The notes under the pieces are model-generated. The model was given only the letters and a program-made list of their open reading frames with translations. It was not told the origin of the DNA and did no database searches. Positions 1,034-22,529 of a DNA stretch of 22,956 bases are shown piece after piece. The stretch comes from a virus. Positions within the stretch are counted from its first letter, which is position 1; every line of letters starts with the position of its first letter. The DNA is taken from positions 5,675-28,630 of the IMG/VR virus record IMGVR_UViG_3300029309_000257; one strand, 5' to 3'. The position numbers and the translations under genes are program-made.

Positions 1034-1072
1034 GGGTCCATGATATCCAGTATCATGGACCCTTTTAATTTT
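1034..1072 (+). terminator. Rho-independent terminator after the fibre gene
   Basis: A perfect 12-bp stem (GGGTCCATGATA at 1034-1045 pairing with 1051-1062) closes a 5-base loop and is followed at once by TTTTAATTTT. It sits 21 bases after the fibre stop codon and separates that gene from the next transcript. Confidence 0.9.
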
Positions 1073-1080
1073 GGTGATAT

Positions 1081-1458
1081 ATGGATACGATTATAATAGC
1101 GGGTATTATTGGATTGGTTTTGGGCATAGGTGGAACCATTGGAGTTCAACAGGCCACGAAACCCAAAGAAGAACCACCCCCCATTGTTATAGCGGACCCT
1201 GTCGCCAAAGAGTTGGGAAAACTGGATTTGGTGGAACCAATATGTCATCCCGAATTCGTTTCCACAAATGGGGATGGATTATGTAAGCTGTTATGGTGTA
1301 TGACCCAAACGAACAGCGCGACGGGAGAAATATCAGGTCAAATGTGCGATAACATTTCCAATGTTGAAAATAAAAAATCAATTTTGGAATATTGTTCGCA
1401 ATACCAAGACCAAGATAGAGACAAATGCATCGATGTATTTTTCCGTCGGGGTTCATAG
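1081..1458 (+). CDS. Small cysteine-rich single-pass membrane protein
   Basis: 125 residues. Residues 2-24 form one hydrophobic segment rich in Ile, Gly and Leu, followed by a Lys/Glu/Pro-rich stretch (KPKEEPPP), which looks like an N-terminal membrane anchor. The rest is soluble with six cysteines spread between about residues 55 and 117, suggesting disulfide bonds outside the cytoplasm. The start ATG at 1081 has only a weak upstream GGTGA. It is isolated between the fibre terminator and the TTATACACA array, which begins one base after its stop. I do not recognise the family. A lysis accessory (spanin-like) or superinfection-exclusion protein is possible, but no motif decides this. Confidence 0.6.
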   Translation: MDTIIIAGIIGLVLGIGGTIGVQQATKPKEEPPPIVIADPVAKELGKLDLVEPICHPEFVSTNGDGLCKLLWCMTQTNSATGEISGQMCDNISNVENKKSILEYCSQYQDQDRDKCIDVFFRRGS

Positions 1459-1557
1459 TTATACACAAGTTATACACAGGTTATACACAGCCTATGAATA
1501 ACCTATGAAAAAAGTTATACACAGGTTATACACAGCTTATGAATAACTTGTGTATAA
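1459..1557. other. Array of six DnaA-box-like sites; candidate origin or DnaA sink
   Basis: TTATACACA, which matches the DnaA-box consensus TTATNCACA, occurs on the + strand at 1459-1467, 1470-1478, 1481-1489, 1515-1523 and 1526-1534, and inverted at 1549-1557. Adjacent boxes are 11 bases apart, about one helical turn. Two weaker inverted copies with one mismatch (TTATTCATA) lie at 1493-1501 and 1538-1546. An AT-rich stretch (1558-1585) follows, as expected for an unwinding element. Binding by host DnaA is inferred. The array could start replication, titrate host DnaA, or control the capsid promoter, whose -35 overlaps the inverted box. A phage repressor with a similar site is the main alternative. 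Confidence 0.7.
1467..1547 (+). repeat. 36-bp direct repeat within the TTATACACA array
   Basis: Bases 1467-1502 recur at 1512-1547 with one mismatch (C1492 versus T1537). Each copy carries two TTATACACA sites followed by a TATGAATAAC segment, so the array appears to have grown by duplicating a two-box unit. Confidence 0.9.
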
Positions 1558-1576
1558 GTAATTTTTGATATATAAT
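1548..1576 (+). promoter_or_regulatory. Promoter candidate for the capsid operon
   Basis: A perfect -10 (TATAAT, 1571-1576) lies 17 bases after a weak -35 (TTGTGT, 1548-1553). The -35 overlaps the inverted TTATACACA site, so a protein bound there would compete with RNA polymerase. The leader to the capsid start at 1656 is about 75 bases long; no gene is seen in it. Confidence 0.5.
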
Positions 1577-1655
1577 AAAAATTGAATCTGGATAGGGTAG
1601 CACCCGAAAAAGCGAAGAATCCGACAACGATAAAAAACCTTATTTGGAGAATAAA

Positions 1656-2579
1656 ATGGCAGTTATAGATTATGCTGTATTAGATACCGATGGTATCAGA
1701 ATGGACCTTATGATAGAAGCGGAAGTAAGAAGTCTTCTGCATGATGGGGCATCAATTCGCAATAGTGGCGCGTTGCTTTTTGCTGGGGATGTTGCAGGTA
1801 TTGGTAGTGATACCATGGCACTAAGATACAGTTCATTAGATGGATTTACGGAAATGGCAGCTGTTGGTGATGGTTCTGAGATAGCAAATAGTGACCTTAC
1901 AAATGCTACAGCCAATATAACTGTAGCAAGACAGGGTCTTCGCTATGACCTAACAGATTTGGCTTCCCTTAGTGGTTTGGGTCAAGATATTGATGTTTTC
2001 CGCTTGGCTGAATCCATGCGTGGAGCATTTGAAATGCGGTTTATGACCCTTCTTTGTGCGACATTTTCAGGTATTACCGCCCAAGCTGGAACCAGCGGAG
2101 TAGATTTGTCAGTTGATGATTTTATGGATGCTATATATCAGCTCGAAATTAGTAATAATCCCAATGATTTACATGCTATTTTGTCAAATCGTCAGGTAGC
2201 CGATTTACAGGCATCCATAAGGAACGAAACAGGGAATGCAATAGCGTTTAACCCTGCCCATTCTGAACTGTTGAAAATGGTTGGTCAAGGTTTTGTCGGT
2301 TCTTTTATGGGTGTAGATATCCATAAAAGTTCTAAATGTGCTACTAGTGGTTCTGATGTTATTGGGGCTATGTTTTCCCGTGGTGCGTTGGCTTATGCTA
2401 TTGGAACCCCTCAACCCCAAGCTATTGGTGGAGTGATTAGACCCGCAGGAACACCAGTTATGGTCGAGCTGCAACGGGACGCTAGCCTATCTTTAACTGA
2501 GATAGTGGGTACAGCTTATACTGGGTGTGCCTTGGTAGAGGATGCCCGAGCTGTCGAGATTTTAAGTGATAACACTTAA
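1656..2579 (+). CDS. Major capsid protein candidate
   Basis: 307 residues starting at ATG 1656, chosen over an in-frame TTG at 1644 because GGAGA sits 5-6 bases upstream of the ATG. The protein is acidic, has no signal peptide or membrane span, and mixes an N-terminal helical part with beta-rich stretches near LRYSSLDGFTEM and TANITVARQGLRYDL. A central helical region (MDAIYQLEISNN, LHAILSNRQVADLQ) and a C-terminal beta part (GTPVMVELQRDASLSLTEIVGTAY) follow. This order matches HK97-fold coat proteins of the P22/N4-like type. Length, a strong promoter-like leader and position at the head of the structural operon support the call. No protease or scaffold gene is visible beside it. The family assignment is inferred from pattern and context, not from a search. 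Confidence 0.7.
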   Translation: MAVIDYAVLDTDGIRMDLMIEAEVRSLLHDGASIRNSGALLFAGDVAGIGSDTMALRYSSLDGFTEMAAVGDGSEIANSDLTNATANITVARQGLRYDLTDLASLSGLGQDIDVFRLAESMRGAFEMRFMTLLCATFSGITAQAGTSGVDLSVDDFMDAIYQLEISNNPNDLHAILSNRQVADLQASIRNETGNAIAFNPAHSELLKMVGQGFVGSFMGVDIHKSSKCATSGSDVIGAMFSRGALAYAIGTPQPQAIGGVIRPAGTPVMVELQRDASLSLTEIVGTAYTGCALVEDARAVEILSDNT

Positions 2580-5515: not shown

Positions 5516-5854
5516 ATGAAATGTCAATTGGGAACCACCGATTATGAATTTGATATCCCATCCTCATTTTGTGGGGTTTGGGATGTTTTCTATATGATAT
5601 CAACCAACCCCAACAGAGCTCAGCTGGGTAGACTATTTGCTGCTATTATTGGACTGACAATTCAGGGGGCGAGATGTCCAAAATATAGCTTAGCAGATGC
5701 GGACCCTATCCAATATGGGGGAAAAATGCAAGAATGGTTGCAAGCGAAGAATATATCTCCAGTGGAAGTTCTTACCGTGGGCTCTAAAGTGTTTTCGTTT
5801 CTATCGGAACATTTAGCCACAAAGGAGGAAGTAGAACAAGCAGGAAATTTTTAA
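5516..5854 (+). CDS. Tail assembly chaperone, short (G-type) form
   Basis: 112 residues, three bases after the tube gene. It is largely helical with a Cys-containing aromatic N-terminus (EFDIPSSFCGVWDVFYMI), then NRAQLGRLFAAIIGLTI and a C-terminal helical part. By position (tube, then this gene, then tape measure) it corresponds to lambda gpG, which coats the tape measure during tail assembly and is absent from virions. Its last sense codons form a slippery site, so a fraction of ribosomes should shift -1 and make the longer G-T fusion. Confidence 0.75.
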   Translation: MKCQLGTTDYEFDIPSSFCGVWDVFYMISTNPNRAQLGRLFAAIIGLTIQGARCPKYSLADADPIQYGGKMQEWLQAKNISPVEVLTVGSKVFSFLSEHLATKEEVEQAGNF

Positions 5855-8725: not shown

Positions 8726-11700
8726 ATGGCAGATACAACTCCAGAATATTTGAGAGGGTTTCTAATTCCCATGGGTTTGGGGGCATCCAATATATGGACA
8801 GCCCAATCTAGTTTTTCCCAACAGGGAAACAAAACAGGAGATTCCCAACCCCAACAAAATACACCTATGAGGGTTATATCAACAGGTTCACAATCTGTTT
8901 CAGGTGATATATCTATAATAACAAGAGGTGCCGGTTCTTCAGATATAGGACGTTTCACATTCACCCAAAATAATGATTCCAACACTATTGAATATGGTAG
9001 AGATTCATTTAATACTATTTCTGGTTTTGAAATGTTGAATCAAGCCAGCGCGGTATCGGACCAATATTTTTTTCCAACAGCCCATGTAGATAGCGCGGAT
9101 AGCATTTACATCTCCTATCATTTTGTGGACAATCCCGCGGGAACGAATAAAGCGGCATACACCAAAATTACACGCGATGGTACACAGTCTACTAATACTG
9201 TTTTTTCTACACCTACATTCGCTACAATTACCCAAAAATACCATCCCAACATGGTTACATTATCAGATGATTCATTGGTTTATTTTCACGTTATAGAGGA
9301 TGGAGGAACAGCAAATATCAGAGCTCACCGAAGTGTTGATGCTGGTTCCACATGGAAAACTATATCAAGAGAGTGTTTAAAAACACCCATTCCTGTCGGG
9401 ATAACATCAGGGATTGGAATCAACACATATCATATACAAAGAATACGTATAGCCCAATTAAATGGCGTTGTTCTAATGTTGATTGAGACTGTTATAAACA
9501 ATACGACTATCACAAAAAGGAATCAACTTTTTCAATACGTATCTATTGACAATGGATGTAATTTCGAACGAATAACAACAGATGCCCAATTATCATCTGA
9601 GAGTTTCCATTCTATAACACTAGATGTACGTTTTGAGCGATTTGTTGTTTCCTATTGTGCGACCACAAACAATATTCATTACATGATTCTTCCAAACGGA
9701 TATTCGAGCATTCATTTAATGAGACAAGCGGAGGAATATTCCGTCCCGACTACACAAACGGTTACAACAGGGACAAACGATTATATGGAGGATGGAGACA
9801 TATCCATTTTGTCGGGTGAAGATGGAACCCAATATATTATTTATTATAATCAAAGTAGATTATTTTTTGCTATGAAAATCAGTTCAGCGGGTGTGACTTG
9901 GGAGGAACCCAACGGAAATGTTGGTATTGAGGATTACACTAATATATTTGGTACTGATGATTCATCTAGTAGGCTGGGAAACATATCCACAACAAAATGG
10001 TTGGGACGTGGAATTATTGTTTCCAATGTCGTTTCCTCATTTAGTAATTTGGGTCCCTCACTATGTATTACATTTTTGGGGGGTTACTCCAATGTCAATA
10101 TTCCCAAATCGAGCTTTTCCAGTGGTTACACAGACTCAAATAGGGGATGCTATTTGGTTAATTATTTACCTGTAGACGAACCAAGCAACATAGCAGGATT
10201 AAACGTAGTAGGAACAGCTGACGATAGAATAACAAGTGGGATGCTTTCCATTGAATCCAGTACAACATATAATTCAAATCGATATTATCGATTTAACAAC
10301 CCAACCCAGGGAATTGTTGTTTCTGATAACAACCTATATACTACATCGGGTGTTATAGCTCGAATATCCTATAAAGTGGTTTCTGGAGGGAGTGTCACAT
10401 CTGGTTTCGATGAATCAGGAATATTTATATCAATAGACAATGGAACAACAGCAAACTATGCCATAAAATTAATAGCCAGTACCACCCAATTTCGATTGTT
10501 TGATAATGTAGCCCCTAGCGTTATTGGGACAGTAAATTTTGATATGACACAAGGGGTTGACATTTACATAGCTATATCCAACGGTAAAGTGAGCACATAT
10601 TACCGAGGATTGGACAATGGAGAACTGAGAAAATATTTGGAGGGTCCGAGCTCCCAAACATTATCAAATGGTGGGGGCTCTTCGGCTGGATATGTTATAC
10701 AATGGGGACATTTGAATTATTCGAGCTCCACAACAATGACATCACAATGGAAAGGGGTTCATGTTTCAACATTGGGGGGAACTGGGGTTCAGTTTTCTGA
10801 TGGTTTTGAAAATCCAGAAAATTTAAACGCTCGGCTGTATCCCCCCATTGGTAGATATGCTTATATACATGATGGTGTTAGAATATCTTCGACAAATGGC
10901 CCCACCTATGAGGGTGACAAATGGAATATTGAAACAGCATACAGCTATCCAGTTGAAAATATTTATCATTCTATCGCCCCTACTCCTCGGGTTGGGTGGC
11001 GTTCTCAATCTGTTTTGAGTGGTTTAGTACCCGCTCAAGAGATAGCATTTAAATTTGATGATGATTTGACCAATTCCAACAATGATAATTTCCCCAATGA
11101 TTTGATGGGCATACATATAAATGGAGTCAATTGGACTCTTGGAGACATTTATTATTATGATGGGGGATGGGTTAGTTTGGGGTCTATTGTTAATTATATA
11201 CGTTCATTTTGCACTGTAAACGGTCGAACAGTAATTGGAAATACTGGAATAGATGAACCATATCTAACATTTAATGAGTGTTCTGGATGGACCTGTTATT
11301 TGTTGGATGGGGCTACTAAACATTTTCGCAAAATAATATCCAATACCGAAGGGATTTTTGGTGGAACATCTGTTGGAACAAAACAGGCTGTTTTAACGCT
11401 GGATGAGTATCCCCCCCAAACATGCAATGTGATTTATTTAATACCACCTATATTGACATTGGTAATGAATATGAATGGGAAAAAAGCCCAAGGGTTTAAA
11501 ATCTCGATTGACTCCCAACAGACGTATGACAATGATATTAGAATTGGTGAAATTGTTATTGGTCCTGTCGTTGTTCCAGGTCGTCAATATTCCCGTGGAA
11601 GAACCATATCAATTGAGAGTGGAACGGAAACAGTGGAAACTCAAGATGGGATTAGATATTCACGGGAAATCAAACCCCCCACAAGAGTGTTCCGAATAGC

Positions 11701-16660: not shown

Positions 16661-16921
16661 ATGAAAAAACCCTTTCATTTATGGCTTAGAGATAAAATAG
16701 CCCATCAGGGATTGACCCAAAGAGAGTTTTCCAAATTGGTGGATATCGATGAATCCAATGTATCCAACTATATTTTGGGAAAACGTATTCCCAACACAAG
16801 AACATTGATTCGTATTATTTTGGTACTTCATGACGATGGACCCAAGAATCAATTGGTGGAACTTCTCTGGGAGGCATTAACAAGCATTGAAAACATAGAG
16901 GTTTACAATGTTGTTGAGTGA
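16661..16921 (+). CDS. XRE-family helix-turn-helix regulator
   Basis: 86 residues. FHLWLRDKIAHQGLTQREFS, then KLVDIDESNVSNYILGKRIP (about 5-44), is a textbook XRE/Cro HTH: LTQREFSKLVDI as helices 1-2 and ESNVSNYILGKR as the recognition helix. The C-terminal 40 residues form one or two helices, probably for dimers. It is the first gene after the shared promoter pair, so it is the likeliest Cro- or repressor-type controller of that switch. It overlaps the next gene by 14 bases. There is no sign of a self-cleavage domain, so it is not a full LexA/CI-type protein. Confidence 0.8.
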   Translation: MKKPFHLWLRDKIAHQGLTQREFSKLVDIDESNVSNYILGKRIPNTRTLIRIILVLHDDGPKNQLVELLWEALTSIENIEVYNVVE

Positions 16922-17573: not shown

Positions 17574-18482
17574 ATGTATAGCATAACAGCTTTACGCCAA
17601 ATTAAAAACACCAAAAACCCTATATTCCTAGAATATGGATTTGAACAACTCGCAAAATTTCTAACCCTTCCACGAGCTGGTTTTAAAACATCCAAACATA
17701 GCACTATCCCTGCTTGGAGTCCTGCAAAGTTCAACGGGATGGGCCTTAAAAGTGAACATGTTTTATCAGTCTCTTGTATGGTTTATGATATAGATGATGG
17801 ATTGGAATTTGATACCCATGAACGCTTCCACCCGTTCCAATACATAGCCTATACCAGCCCATCCCATAGCTTTGAACACCACAAATGGAGATTGGTCCTT
17901 CCACTTGATGAACCCATCCCCATGAAATATTGGGGATTGGTTTGGGAGGACATGAAAAACTATTTTGAGATAAAAACAAACACCCTATTGAATGGGGGAA
18001 AAATTGATACAACTTGCAAAGACCCAAGGCGTTTTTATTTTCTGGGAAAAGAGGGGAGACATTTTGAATCCCATGTCAATGAAAAGGGATATAATTTTTG
18101 GGTCAATTTACCTGAAATTATAGAACGGAAAAAACAACGAGACGAAGCCCAAAGAAGAGCTTTAGAAATACAAAAACAAAAACTTCGGGATGCAATGAAA
18201 AGACCCCAACGAAACAGGGATACATATAATGAATTGAGAATGCAATTAAACACAAATCCACAATATAGAAAACTATTATTGGAACGTATTGGGGGGAAAA
18301 TAACAGGTGGAGCGAATCCACGCGCTATTGGGTGGGAATGTCCATCCTGTAAAAGGTCCGATTGCACGTTTTTTTATGTCAATCCTTTGGGAAATAAATT
18401 GGGGGCATTTTGCAACCATAGAAATAGCTGTGGATTTACTAGTGGGTTATTCGAGCTGGGACGACTAAAGGGGGTGTTCTAA
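17574..18482 (+). CDS. Primase-polymerase (AEP-type) with C-terminal zinc ribbon
   Basis: 302 residues. MVYDIDDG has the D-x-D metal-binding pair (D72, D74). TSPSHSFEHHKWRLVLPLDE supplies the S-x-H element (H98) and a following Arg (R106). GKIDTTCKDPRRFYFLG holds the third acidic residue. This is the motif order of archaeo-eukaryotic primase (AEP) domains. Residues 185-230 are a charged helical linker. The C-terminus has four to six metal ligands (ECPSCKRSDC...CNHRNSCG), a zinc ribbon. It would prime DNA synthesis and may also extend. Zinc ribbons often precede primase domains; here it follows. AGGA lies nine bases before the start. The next gene, a helicase, overlaps by one base. Confidence 0.75.
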   Translation: MYSITALRQIKNTKNPIFLEYGFEQLAKFLTLPRAGFKTSKHSTIPAWSPAKFNGMGLKSEHVLSVSCMVYDIDDGLEFDTHERFHPFQYIAYTSPSHSFEHHKWRLVLPLDEPIPMKYWGLVWEDMKNYFEIKTNTLLNGGKIDTTCKDPRRFYFLGKEGRHFESHVNEKGYNFWVNLPEIIERKKQRDEAQRRALEIQKQKLRDAMKRPQRNRDTYNELRMQLNTNPQYRKLLLERIGGKITGGANPRAIGWECPSCKRSDCTFFYVNPLGNKLGAFCNHRNSCGFTSGLFELGRLKGVF

Positions 18483-19813
18483 TGGGTGTAGAGGATACAT
18501 TTGATGCTATGGTGATGGAGCTCAGCAAAGACTATGTAAGTCCCCAAGCATTAGATTTGAAAATGAAAAAGATAAAAGTCCAGGACAAGGAGGGAAACCA
18601 ACGAATTGAGGATGGAAACCCTTATAGTACGCGGTCCAACATTTCCAAGATATTGGAGAACCATCCTAAGTTTCAATCTCTGTTTTGGGATGACTTTTCA
18701 ATGAAGATATATTGGAATGATAAAGCCTTTGCGGACCACGATTTAACGCGGATTGTTATTTGGATTGAGAATACATATCATTTCATTACATCCGAGGATG
18801 TATTGAAAAAGGTTGTTTTATTGGTGGCTCGGAATAGAGCTAAAAATCTATTGGCTGAATATTTGGATTCTCATATCACCGAAGAAACCGAGGATACCCT
18901 GGGATGGGATGGAACCCAACGATTAAAGGACATTTTCACAAAATATTTTGGAGTAGAATCCATCTATTTTAATGATGATGGAGTCCAAAAAGATTTGGTG
19001 GAAATATATGGGGTGAAATATTTTGTGGGGGCCATAAAGCGCGCTTTGTTCGCTACATTGGAAAGTCCAATAAAGCAGGACGTGGTTCTTATCCTCATGG
19101 GGGCCCAAGGGATTCGTAAATCGAGCGCGTTGGAAGCATTGGCATTAAAAAATTGTTGGTTTTCAGATGAAGAACTGGACTTGACTTCCAAGGATGCCAA
19201 ATATGCCATCCAAGGAAAACTGCTATATGAACTAGCAGAATGGAGTGGAAGAGGGAAAAATATCCAACGGGAGAAAGCTTTCTTTTCCAGCAAAACCGAC
19301 CGATACAGACCTGTTCATGGGACCTTTCAAATTGAAGTTCCCAGGCGTTGCAATTTTGCAGTAACAGCCAATAGAAAGTCTTTGCTGAATGATTCAACAG
19401 GTTCCCGTCGATATTGGGCCTTGGTTTGTGGACAGGTGATTCATGAGGGTGGATGGGATGGGAAAAAACTCCCAGTTGCAGAGCTGGAAAAAATTGCTGT
19501 CCAAATTTGGTTGGAAGCGCGATATTTGGCATCCCAAGATGTTCAATATTGGCTAACGGATAAGGAAGACGAACAACGAGCAGATACCAATACTGAATTT
19601 GCCTCTTCACATCCATGGATATACAAGGTTCGTAAAATTGTTCTTTCTCGTGATGAAGTGACAATCGATTTCATTATGGATGCCCTGGCTCTTCGGATGT
19701 CGGAACGAAACCCCAAATCAAAAACTATTATTGAAATGTGTTTAAAGGAGATTGGTTATAGTAAAAAAAGGAGGGGTTCCCGAAACAATAGATATATAGC
19801 GTGGGTTAAATGA
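18482..19813 (+). CDS. VapE-type SF3-like replicative helicase
   Basis: 443 residues. Residues 207-215 form the Walker A motif GAQGIRKSS. LLYELAEWSG (about 247-256) is Walker B, TAN at 295-297 is sensor 1, and GSRRYW at 307-312 carries the arginine finger. This is the virulence-associated protein E (VapE/VirE) fold, related to D5-like primase-helicases. The N-terminal 190 residues are a helical domain that could bind DNA; the C-terminal 60 residues are basic. Together with the primase gene it should form the replisome core, and VapE-type Rep proteins are known to act on iteron origins in SaPIs. The iteron array 0.8 kb downstream is a candidate target. Confidence 0.85.
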   Translation: MGVEDTFDAMVMELSKDYVSPQALDLKMKKIKVQDKEGNQRIEDGNPYSTRSNISKILENHPKFQSLFWDDFSMKIYWNDKAFADHDLTRIVIWIENTYHFITSEDVLKKVVLLVARNRAKNLLAEYLDSHITEETEDTLGWDGTQRLKDIFTKYFGVESIYFNDDGVQKDLVEIYGVKYFVGAIKRALFATLESPIKQDVVLILMGAQGIRKSSALEALALKNCWFSDEELDLTSKDAKYAIQGKLLYELAEWSGRGKNIQREKAFFSSKTDRYRPVHGTFQIEVPRRCNFAVTANRKSLLNDSTGSRRYWALVCGQVIHEGGWDGKKLPVAELEKIAVQIWLEARYLASQDVQYWLTDKEDEQRADTNTEFASSHPWIYKVRKIVLSRDEVTIDFIMDALALRMSERNPKSKTIIEMCLKEIGYSKKRRGSRNNRYIAWVK

Positions 19814-20595: not shown

Positions 20596-20708
20596 GTGAC
20601 ACCATATCTTCAGGTTTAAAGTACAATATCGAGGCGGTGTCACACCGTGTCACACCTATAGTGACACCAAATCACTAGGATTAAGCTACAATATCGAGCA
20701 GGTGTCAC
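20596..20708 (+). repeat. Left arm of the iteron array
   Basis: Two 48-bp units (20596-20643 and 20661-20708), each opening with a GTGACACCAWATCNYYAGG-like segment and closing with GTGTCAC. Both contain TACAATATCGAG (20622-20633 and 20687-20698). A lone heptamer sits between them at 20647-20653, three bases after the first unit and seven before the second. Confidence 0.9.
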
Positions 20709-20783
20709 GAATTTCTCTATTTTTCTATTTTTTCTTAGAAAGAATATTTTACATATAGAAAAAAGTAAAAAAACAAAAAATTT
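20709..20783. other. AT-rich core between iteron arms
   Basis: A 75-bp stretch almost entirely A and T, with runs of T on the left and A on the right, no heptamer and no coding frame of note. Strand opening is the expected role if the arms bind an initiator. Confidence 0.7.
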
Positions 20784-20896
20784 GTGACACATCGTTGAAA
20801 ACAGACGAATAACCTAGGGAATTGGTGTCACGCGTCCCGTGACACGCTGTGACACGTCAATGATATTCTAGTACAAACCTATGGAATTGGTGTCAC
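20784..20896 (-). repeat. Right arm of the iteron array
   Basis: Two 48-bp units in opposite orientation (20784-20831 and 20849-20896), whose minus strands begin GTGACACCAATTCCNTAGG. The lone heptamer at 20839-20845 lies seven bases from the inner unit and three from the outer one, an exact mirror of the left arm. Confidence 0.9.
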
Positions 20897-20916: not shown

Positions 20917-21537
20917 TCAAAACAATTTTAGCTGTCTTTGATGGTTTTTGAGTCGTTTGGATGCCGCCTCAAAATATTCTTTGTCAATCTCAAACCCATC
21001 GAGATGGAATCCCATATCATGACAAGCCAGAGCAATGGACCCACTGCCCAAATGAGTATCAAGGATTCTATCTCCAGTTTTGGCATATCTATTAAGCAAA
21101 ATTGAATATAGGGAGATGGGTTTTTGACATGGGTGAATAATCGGTTCTTTCCGGTTTATGTTTTGCCAAATCAAATCTATGTATTCAACTTTTTGATGCT
21201 TTGATGTGTATGCAATCTCACATTTTGACATATTGGGGGCCCGAACATGTTTATACCAAACAATCATCCCACCCACTAGATTGGGATAATAATTTGCTCC
21301 CCAAATGATTTGGTGTTTTGATACTCTCCCCAGCTCCGTGAAATATTCAATTGATGGAATGGAATTATTCCATTTTTGCGTTTTCAATCTCTTTTTCCGT
21401 CGTTCCTCTTTTGGTTCGGTACTACTATGGGCCCAATCTTCTATTCCATAAGGAGGGTCACAGATAGCCAAATCCCAATGGTTATCTGGTGCGTTGGACA
21501 TGGCTTCCATGCAGTCCATATTGTATAAGTTAATCAT
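20917..21537 (-). CDS. Beta-class DNA adenine methyltransferase B
   Basis: 206 residues. Near the N-terminus AICDPPYG (D27-P-P-Y30) is the catalytic motif IV of amino-methyltransferases; IIHPCQKPISLY (about 133-144) follows, and ILDTHLGSGSIAL (about 158-170) is motif I, which binds S-adenosylmethionine. The order IV, recognition region, I places it in the beta class. DPPY favours N6-adenine. The central region (about 31-130) differs from its upstream paralogue while both ends are almost identical, which suggests different targets. It starts seven bases after the paralogue's stop, with AGGA upstream. No partner restriction enzyme is seen, so it probably protects phage DNA or alters its regulation. 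Confidence 0.85.
   Translation of the reverse strand: MINLYNMDCMEAMSNAPDNHWDLAICDPPYGIEDWAHSSTEPKEERRKKRLKTQKWNNSIPSIEYFTELGRVSKHQIIWGANYYPNLVGGMIVWYKHVRAPNMSKCEIAYTSKHQKVEYIDLIWQNINRKEPIIHPCQKPISLYSILLNRYAKTGDRILDTHLGSGSIALACHDMGFHLDGFEIDKEYFEAASKRLKNHQRQLKLF
20948..21084 (-). repeat. 137-bp exact repeat in methyltransferase B (copy at 21576-21712)
   Basis: The 3' ends of the two methyltransferase genes are identical over 137 bp. The two copies are 628 bp apart, direct in orientation. Such identity, next to divergent middles, points to recent duplication or gene conversion, and could recombine to give one hybrid gene. Confidence 0.9.
21441..21510 (-). repeat. 70-bp exact repeat at the methyltransferase 5' ends (copy at 22060-22129)
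   Basis: The 5' parts of the genes, encoding the DPPY region, are identical over 70 bp, 619 bp apart; after one mismatch identity continues through the start codon and ribosome site. The different offset from the 3' repeat shows that the middles differ in length by 9 bp. Confidence 0.9.
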
Positions 21538-21544
21538 GTGGTTC

Positions 21545-22156
21545 CTAGAATAGTTTTAATTGTCTTTGGTGGTTCTTGAGTCGTTTGGATGCCGCCTCAA
21601 AATATTCTTTGTCAATCTCAAACCCATCGAGATGGAATCCCATATCATGACAAGCCAGAGCAATGGACCCACTGCCCAAATGAGTATCAAGGATTCTATC
21701 TCCAGTTTTGGCGTATCTACTGAGAATCCATGTATACAAAGACACGGGTTTTTGGGTTGGGTGAATCCTGCCTCCAGAATCACTTCGTTTTGTAAACTGT
21801 TTGAGATTGGTATCAAAGGAAGTGAATGCCAGTTCCCCATCGGCATAGTTCCCTCCCATTTTCTTTTCCCAATATATCCATCCCCTAGAAGGTGGTAGCA
21901 TATCAGAAAAATAATTGGCTCCCCAAATGATTTGGTTCTTAGATACTCTAAAGAGCTCCAAGAAATATTCTTTGTTGGGTTTGGTGCTGTCCCATTGTTT
22001 TGGAGTGTACAAGTCAGACTTTTTGCCTCCACGGGTTATTCCTGCTCCAATGCCCATCCCTATTCCATAAGGAGGGTCACAGATAGCCAAATCCCAATGG
22101 TTATCTGGTGCGTTGGACATGGCTTCCATACAGTCCATATTGTATAATTTAATCAT
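21545..22156 (-). CDS. Beta-class DNA adenine methyltransferase A
   Basis: 203 residues from ATG 22156, where the sequence aligns with the start of its paralogue (MI.LYNMDCMEAMSNAPDN); the open frame upstream overlaps the neighbouring gene and is rejected. It shares DPPYG near residue 27, IHPTQKPVSLY and LDTHLGSGSIAL with the paralogue, so the same beta-class chemistry applies. Its middle is longer in a Gly/Lys-rich loop (GIGMGIGAGITRGGKK) and has a different recognition region ending in GGRIHP. Target sequence unknown. With its sister gene it forms a tandem pair that arose by duplication. Confidence 0.85.
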   Translation of the reverse strand: MIKLYNMDCMEAMSNAPDNHWDLAICDPPYGIGMGIGAGITRGGKKSDLYTPKQWDSTKPNKEYFLELFRVSKNQIIWGANYFSDMLPPSRGWIYWEKKMGGNYADGELAFTSFDTNLKQFTKRSDSGGRIHPTQKPVSLYTWILSRYAKTGDRILDTHLGSGSIALACHDMGFHLDGFEIDKEYFEAASKRLKNHQRQLKLF

Positions 22157-22175
22157 GTGGTTCCCATGGTATAGA

Positions 22176-22529
22176 TTATTTTTTAGCCTGTTCTCGTTCG
22201 ATTCTTCGTAGTGTACGTTTGGCCCAAGCGCGTCCTTCATTTCCACCCCAAGCCAAAAATGCTTGGTATGCTTTGGATGTTCTATCGGTTCGGTTTCGTC
22301 GTTCCATAACACTGGCATCATGTCGAGCAAACCACGCGACCATGGTTTTCATTAGGTCCACGGAAATGGGGTTCCCACTCATCAAAGCCCTAGCGGTTCT
22401 TACACCTTGGGATGGTTTCCCATCCGCGCCCACCATGGCTTTTCTTGACTTGGGCATCCCTGCTCTTATATCCAATCCTTTGGCGGCATTGGCTCTAACT
22501 TTAACGGGTGGAATTCGTGATATTGGCAT
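22176..22529 (-). CDS. Conserved phage protein of unknown function
   Basis: 117 residues; AGGAG nine bases before the start. The pattern VRANAAKGLDIR then GVRTARALMSGNPIS then WFARHD then FLAWGGNEGRAWAKR recurs in many phage proteins I have seen, though its function is not known to me. It is basic (Arg and Lys rich) and mainly helical, so it may bind nucleic acid or be a virion component. First gene of the leftward methyltransferase operon, 19 bases before methyltransferase A, and divergent from the basic protein at 22586. Confidence 0.65.
   Translation of the reverse strand: MPISRIPPVKVRANAAKGLDIRAGMPKSRKAMVGADGKPSQGVRTARALMSGNPISVDLMKTMVAWFARHDASVMERRNRTDRTSKAYQAFLAWGGNEGRAWAKRTLRRIEREQAKK

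Follow-up and report, generated by a model that had tools for sequence, protein, structure and literature searches.

A selected array of putative host DnaA boxes near the capsid gene in a family of uncultured phages

Nine DnaA-box-like sites, all in register, lie at a predicted capsid promoter, just ahead of the capsid gene, in the DNA of an uncultured phage and, judged from the patterns of change across its relatives, the sites of this array are under selection. The window, that is, the whole stretch of DNA analysed, comprises 22,956 nucleotides and corresponds to 5675-28630 in an IMG/VR virus record that is 28,630 bases long. Host DnaA is very likely the binder of the array, and the favoured reading, to which a probability of roughly 0.4 is given, is that the array is a DnaA-recruiting element that aids the replication of the phage.

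The sites occupy positions 1459-1557 with the orientations +++--++-- (allowing TTWTNCAYA), and the steps from site to site are 11, 11, 12, 11, 11, 11, 12 and 11 bp, which leaves gaps of 2 bp, or of 3 bp at the + to - junctions. Six exact copies of TTATACACA are found, five on the + strand and one on the - strand (Table 1), as against 0.26 expected by chance in the window, and none of 100 shuffles reached six; in 200 first-order Markov simulations, the maximum was two TTWTNCACA sites per 110-bp stretch, compared with six in the array. The six exact sites within 100 bp that had been noticed in a preliminary description are thus borne out. The same description spoke of five sites in one orientation with 11-base steps, of which the five + sites stand but not their succession, since three are followed by two inverted sites and then by two more, and it counted two weaker sites where three are found (sites 4, 5 and 8). 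The array consists of two copies of a 45-bp unit, formed by sites 2-5 (++--) and sites 6-9, and dyads of the form GGTTAT...ATAACC are present within it. On its upstream side, the TAG stop codon (1456-1458) of an open reading frame (ORF) of 125 amino acids abuts site 1. Few parts of the record have less stable DNA than the array and its flank, where the third least stable 50-bp stretch starts at 1538; this is an arrangement of the origin type in which a DnaA array adjoins AT-rich, easily opened DNA. No second such array exists in the 28,630 bases of the record.

Table 1. Coordinates of the features discussed (positions in the window, unless a related contig is named)
Feature	Position	Strand	Remarks
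Intrinsic-terminator-like hairpin before the 125-aa ORF	1034..1062	+	
ORF of 125 aa, upstream of the array	1081..1458	+	close relatives have homologs of 59-65% identity before the array
Site 1, TTATACACA	1459..1467	+	exact
Site 2, TTATACACA	1470..1478	+	exact; 2-bp gap
Site 3, TTATACACA	1481..1489	+	exact; 2-bp gap
Site 4, TTATTCATA	1493..1501	-	weaker, inverted; 3-bp gap; site also in relatives
Site 5, TTTTTCATA	1504..1512	-	weaker, inverted; 2-bp gap; TTTTCCACA, TTTTTCACA or TTATACACA in relatives
Site 6, TTATACACA	1515..1523	+	exact
Site 7, TTATACACA	1526..1534	+	exact
Site 8, TTATTCATA	1538..1546	-	weaker, inverted
Site 9, TTATACACA	1549..1557	-	exact, inverted; overlaps the -35 hexamer
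45-bp unit, copy 1 (sites 2-5, ++--)	1470..1514	+	
45-bp unit, copy 2 (sites 6-9)	1515..1559	+	
-35 hexamer TTGTGT	1548..1553	+	3/6 consensus; overlaps site 9
-10 hexamer TATAAT	1571..1576	+	17-bp spacer; AT-rich
Structured leader RNA of the predicted capsid mRNA	1589..1623	+	pseudoknot
Major capsid protein gene	1656..2579	+	PHROG 544 (E 9e-8)
VapE-like helicase/primase gene	18482..19813	+	replication module
Repeat cluster, four units of ~48 bp bounded by GTGACAC...GTGTCAC	20596..20896		rival origin candidate
TTATCCACA array, L140	2511-2639		
TTATCCACA array, L145	2-121		
TTATCCACA array, L175	3172-3324		

The TATAAT promoter with its -35 element inside the last inverted site, as previously proposed, holds, and so does the assignment of the downstream gene to the capsid. 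A generic consensus promoter scan did not return this promoter because its -35 hexamer is weak. With regard to the remainder of the record, positions 1-1013 of the window hold a tail-fibre-like ORF with internal repeats, and ten N bases together with a near-duplicate stretch immediately upstream (record positions 5665-5674) suggest a scaffold gap inside tail-fibre-like repeats. Two very similar DNA methyltransferase-like ORFs stand in tandem at 20917-21537 and 21545-22330, apparently as the result of a gene duplication.

The identity of the binding protein can be approached through the variation of the sites. In an alignment of 11 close relatives, where the register of the site columns was set by one member, the sites follow T T (A/T) T (T/A/C) C A C A, apart from rare exceptions: at position 3 there are 66 A and 21 T, at position 5 there are 31 T, 30 A, 26 C and one G, the seven other positions are nearly fixed and the flanks are mostly (A/G)G. 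The high-affinity consensus of DnaA is TTWTNCACA (PMC12371093), and the variation of the phage sites is confined to its positions 3 and 5. In vivo, E. coli DnaA is found mainly on paired boxes with 2 or 3 bp between them, and the addition of one base pair to a 3-bp gap strongly lowers its binding (PMC11317965). Neighbouring boxes of the array are likewise 2 or 3 bp apart. Because of the TTWTNCACA constraint, the 2- or 3-bp gaps and a second type of array that shares only the DnaA word, described below, the earlier proposal that the sites are DnaA boxes is well supported, and it is very likely host DnaA that binds them. A search by TerL and capsid profiles for relatives in 84,980 bacterial and archaeal genomes returned none and did not find the host, and neither similar phage DNA nor a cultured near relative was present in the phage collection. 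The best capsid matches were the pelagiphages HTVC026P and HTVC112P and phage DSL-LC06, at 26-29%, while searches with the portal and clade-3 capsid proteins gave no matches and no tRNA genes were found in the phage.

A scan of viral contigs with TTATACACANNTTATACACA yielded 109 stretches, many but not all of which come from relatives as judged by gene order and protein similarity. This pattern alone also matches isolated pairs without an array, some of them coincidence-like (e.g. L014 and L047), and the conclusions therefore rest on a motif-blind search, in which 80 relatives were fetched via alignment of the capsid protein. Of 21 close relatives (L119-L138 and L150; capsids 64-69% identical), 19 carry the phased array in the corresponding position; the loci are not all independent, as some contigs possibly stem from overlapping samples. 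These arrays contain 5-12 strict boxes and are no more than about 300 bp away from the start of the capsid gene. In L121 and L122, the array has been lost save for a remnant, while the promoter and the leader have been kept. The number of 45-bp units varies, with two in L137 and three in L150, two contigs that are 92% identical. Lineages with 36-40% capsid identity share the array grammar, made of 45-bp ++-- units (L049, L091, L101) or of 34-bp ++- units (L025, L045, L087, L092 and L112, with single units in L016 and L056), the number of units being one, two or three among L016, L025 and L087. In such diverged lineages, the array precedes the capsid module at the same junction, sometimes with another gene in between, and in clade 2 a separate gene lies between the array and the capsid gene. 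Arrays are missing from 6 of the 16 family records of 28 kb or more, which may be incomplete, and an array is therefore not essential to every member of the family.

Several relatives without the capsid-promoter array carry one different array instead, composed of TTATCCACA sites with mostly 3-bp gaps. L140, L145 and L175 have 8-10 such sites, stepped by 12 and 20-21 bp, in the interval that separates the scaffold gene from the capsid gene; the arrays of L140 and L175 begin right after a stop codon, and a hairpin and then T-rich DNA follow the arrays of this group. In G023 and G025, the VapE-like helicase gene is followed, immediately from its stop codon onwards, by TTATCCACA sites with 3-bp gaps. 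The arrays of G031, G032 and G033 are close to primase and helicase genes, and in the first two of these GTGACA dyads are some 170 bp away from the array. A reversed control pattern had no matches in any of 30 records. The capsid-promoter array and the TTATCCACA array differ in spacing and have only TTATNCACA, the DnaA word, in common. In this group of eight relatives (L140, L145, L175, G023, G025 and G031-G033), the array is not linked to the promoter seen in the window, and across the family its distance to the capsid gene can be 2.7-3.5 kb, or it can adjoin the helicase gene.

On the favoured reading, the array would be a docking site on which host DnaA assembles cooperatively, its nine sites being 2 or 3 bp apart and forming two oppositely oriented sets. 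The adjoining AT-rich DNA could be strained or opened by the DnaA complex, which would act as a cis-acting helper of phage DNA replication by recruiting host replication proteins, or might alternatively activate an origin with the assistance of the local promoter. The array also covers the -35 element of the capsid promoter, and in some relatives the -10 element too, so that DnaA occupancy should affect capsid transcription. A role in replication fits the typical presence of one array per array-bearing genome, its intergenic and variable place, its ability to adjoin the helicase gene and its unstable flank. None of the ORFs examined was recognised as a DNA polymerase gene, and host replication enzymes are therefore probably needed. 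Against this reading stand the six records without an array and a second origin candidate in the window itself, the repeat cluster behind the replication genes, whose units surround an AT-rich core of ~70 bp. This GTGACAC dyad cluster resembles an origin with initiator sites and would be a more classical candidate than the array; a pattern search for GTGACAC dyads in the close relatives did not find them. Differing repeat clusters are also seen near the replication genes of L211 (around 950-1300, TGTTCCAA) and L205 (around 10950-11300, GTGTGAAA), where they are perhaps sites of the phages' own initiators. GC skew was dropped as evidence on the origin for want of a signal: there is no switch at the array, and the cumulative skew climbs steadily through it, which is a weak test in a genome with most genes on one strand.

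Control of the late promoter by DnaA comes close behind replication among the explanations and is in itself a possible but somewhat doubtful reading. DnaA on the last sites would block the sigma factor at the capsid -35 or -10 element and, with each phage copy adding nine sites, free DnaA would drop until the promoter opens, tracking copy number. The boxes overlap core promoter elements in a conserved manner: the window and all 18 close relatives examined (18/18) have a perfect TATAAT and a best -35 element, at 16-18 bp, that is overlapped by a box, and in five of those relatives the inverted box also overlaps the -10 element. The junction of the array with the capsid module, kept in the lineages with 36-40% capsid identity, also speaks for this reading. 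However, the array lies away from the capsid promoter in other members, and late-gene control therefore cannot be its general function; the intervening gene of clade 2 and the two close relatives that keep promoter and leader despite having lost the array point in the same direction. The tie to late expression suggested in the preliminary description is accordingly in keeping with the promoter overlap but not with the array's placement across the family. In such an arrangement, bound DnaA should impede RNA polymerase, and the block could be lifted as the sites multiply with replication. In its more elaborate form, which seems rather unlikely, a copy-number timer would be built from host DnaA, with the array complex shutting the capsid promoter and replication draining DnaA until it opens; late expression would then be tied to the amount of phage DNA with no need for a phage-encoded switch protein.

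A simple sponge, in which the array multiplied by the phage ties up DnaA and thereby stops host replication rounds or alters DnaA-regulated genes, is less likely than control of the late promoter and is given about as little credence as the timer. Its dense, high-affinity sites, its free position in the genome and the variable number of 45- or 34-bp units in close relatives, as expected if dosage outweighs geometry, would suit such a role, but nine sites per injected genome would be few relative to the cellular pool of DnaA, and a pure sink would not require the weak sites 4, 5 and 8 to stay in phase with the rest. The E. coli locus datA, which like DARS needs IHF or Fis and acts on the nucleotide state of DnaA, is a loose analogy only. 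It is improbable that the array is the operator of a phage-encoded regulator with an accidental likeness to DnaA boxes. The array does flank a promoter and include dyads, and the phage encodes at least one HTH_3 protein (16661-16921), but the free positions of the sites are exactly those of the DnaA consensus, the two differently spaced arrays share nothing beyond the DnaA word and arrays of a similar kind turn up in over 100 further viral contigs. Neutral tandem duplication or an assembly artefact is far less probable still: duplications of units clearly occur, but the array is kept in independent contigs of many samples and its sites are selectively constrained.

The array is not the only conserved element at the capsid promoter. 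A CGGATAGGTTCACAACCGTTAACAGTGCAAGAATCCG-like element is located between the -10 hexamer and the ribosome site, at the extreme 5' end of the predicted capsid mRNA, in every relative examined (L006 and L119-L198), including relatives without a DnaA array. It contains a hairpin of the form GGKT...ACC whose loop (CGC, CAC or CGT) pairs with a downstream GCG, GTG or ACG. In the window, an outer stem (TGGAT/ATCCG) encloses the hairpin GGGT-AGC-ACCC, the loop of which pairs with GCG at 1612-1614, and two of the three pseudoknot pairs are formed. Across 32 distinct sequences, 96% of the pairs in the hairpin and the loop pairing are standard ones; shuffles give 82.5%, and slid pairings no more than 45%. 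Structure played no part in making the alignment but was itself derived from these sequences, so that the slid control is biased in its favour. Covariation is strong, changes on both sides of these pairings having been counted in 32 cells, against 10.3 in shuffles. For the outer stem, the support is weaker, with a mean helix of 5.6 bp versus 4.9 bp in re-paired flanks (maximum 5.5 of 500). A scan with the leader pattern gave 50 viral stretches, and in 45 of these the next ORF, usually about 50 nt on, belongs to this capsid family. No match at the gathering threshold was found for the leader in Rfam, where matches below the threshold were chance ones only. The leader looks like an apparently undescribed cis-regulatory or mRNA-stabilising pseudoknot RNA of phages, conserved through the family.

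DnaA boxes in phage DNA are already known from lambda and T5, and the array is a variant of that. oriC of E. coli also combines AT-rich DNA with neighbouring DnaA sites that are tightly packed, 2 bp apart and oriented both ways (PMC6727663), its low-affinity sites having 2-bp spacing and forming two oppositely oriented arrays (PMC6727663, referring to Rozgaja 2011). In contrast to oriC, the + sites of the phage match the consensus and are not of low affinity, the ++-- unit is repeated and the array is located at a capsid promoter. In lambda, DnaA boxes lie near ori-lambda and pR/pO, binding near pO has been footprinted and DnaA has been reported to stimulate the transcriptional activation of ori-lambda (PMC3985674 and works cited therein). 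Both phages thus set DnaA boxes beside a promoter, but lambda has a few boxes in its replication region, whereas here nine phased sites precede the capsid gene. By analogy, lambda offers a precedent for a mixed role in replication and at a promoter. The injection stop signal region of T5-like phages is likewise non-coding and contains multiple repeats, inverted repeats and DnaA boxes (PMC13250531); it concerns a two-step DNA entry, however, a mode that is not known here, and the phages are unrelated. In the T5-like Proteus phage PM135, a match to the array is found in a stretch without annotated genes. The datA and DARS loci resemble the array as clusters of DnaA boxes outside oriC and are responsible for much of the titration of DnaA by the chromosome (PMC12371093). 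Double boxes ahead of E. coli genes, purH and polA among them, share the 2- or 3-bp spacing preferred in vivo (PMC11317965), but consist of two sites as opposed to nine or more in the phage.

Over 100 contigs of other viruses also have dense arrays with 2-bp gaps, and the 75 examined have 3-11 boxes that do not follow the grammar of this family. No common gene partner emerged for these arrays, which are found with a mixture of terminase, endolysin, VapE-like helicase and repressor genes. Stretches matching the array were also observed at 2224-2258 and in two more places of L116 (PQ006488.1), a gut microvirus of only 4.5 kb, beside its pilot protein gene. A non-exhaustive literature search found no phage DnaA-box array at late genes, nor a selected, phased capsid-promoter array that is kept family-wide and swapped for another DnaA array in sister lineages.

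Taken at the level of the family, these results point to uncultured phages in which selection maintains dense arrays for host DnaA, and both architectures of these arrays match the spacing rule of E. coli DnaA. A role in replication would make the phages dependent on the host initiator; a role at the promoter would tie capsid synthesis to the level of DnaA. Either way, the evolution of the sites may serve as an independent test of the grammar of DnaA sites outside model bacteria.
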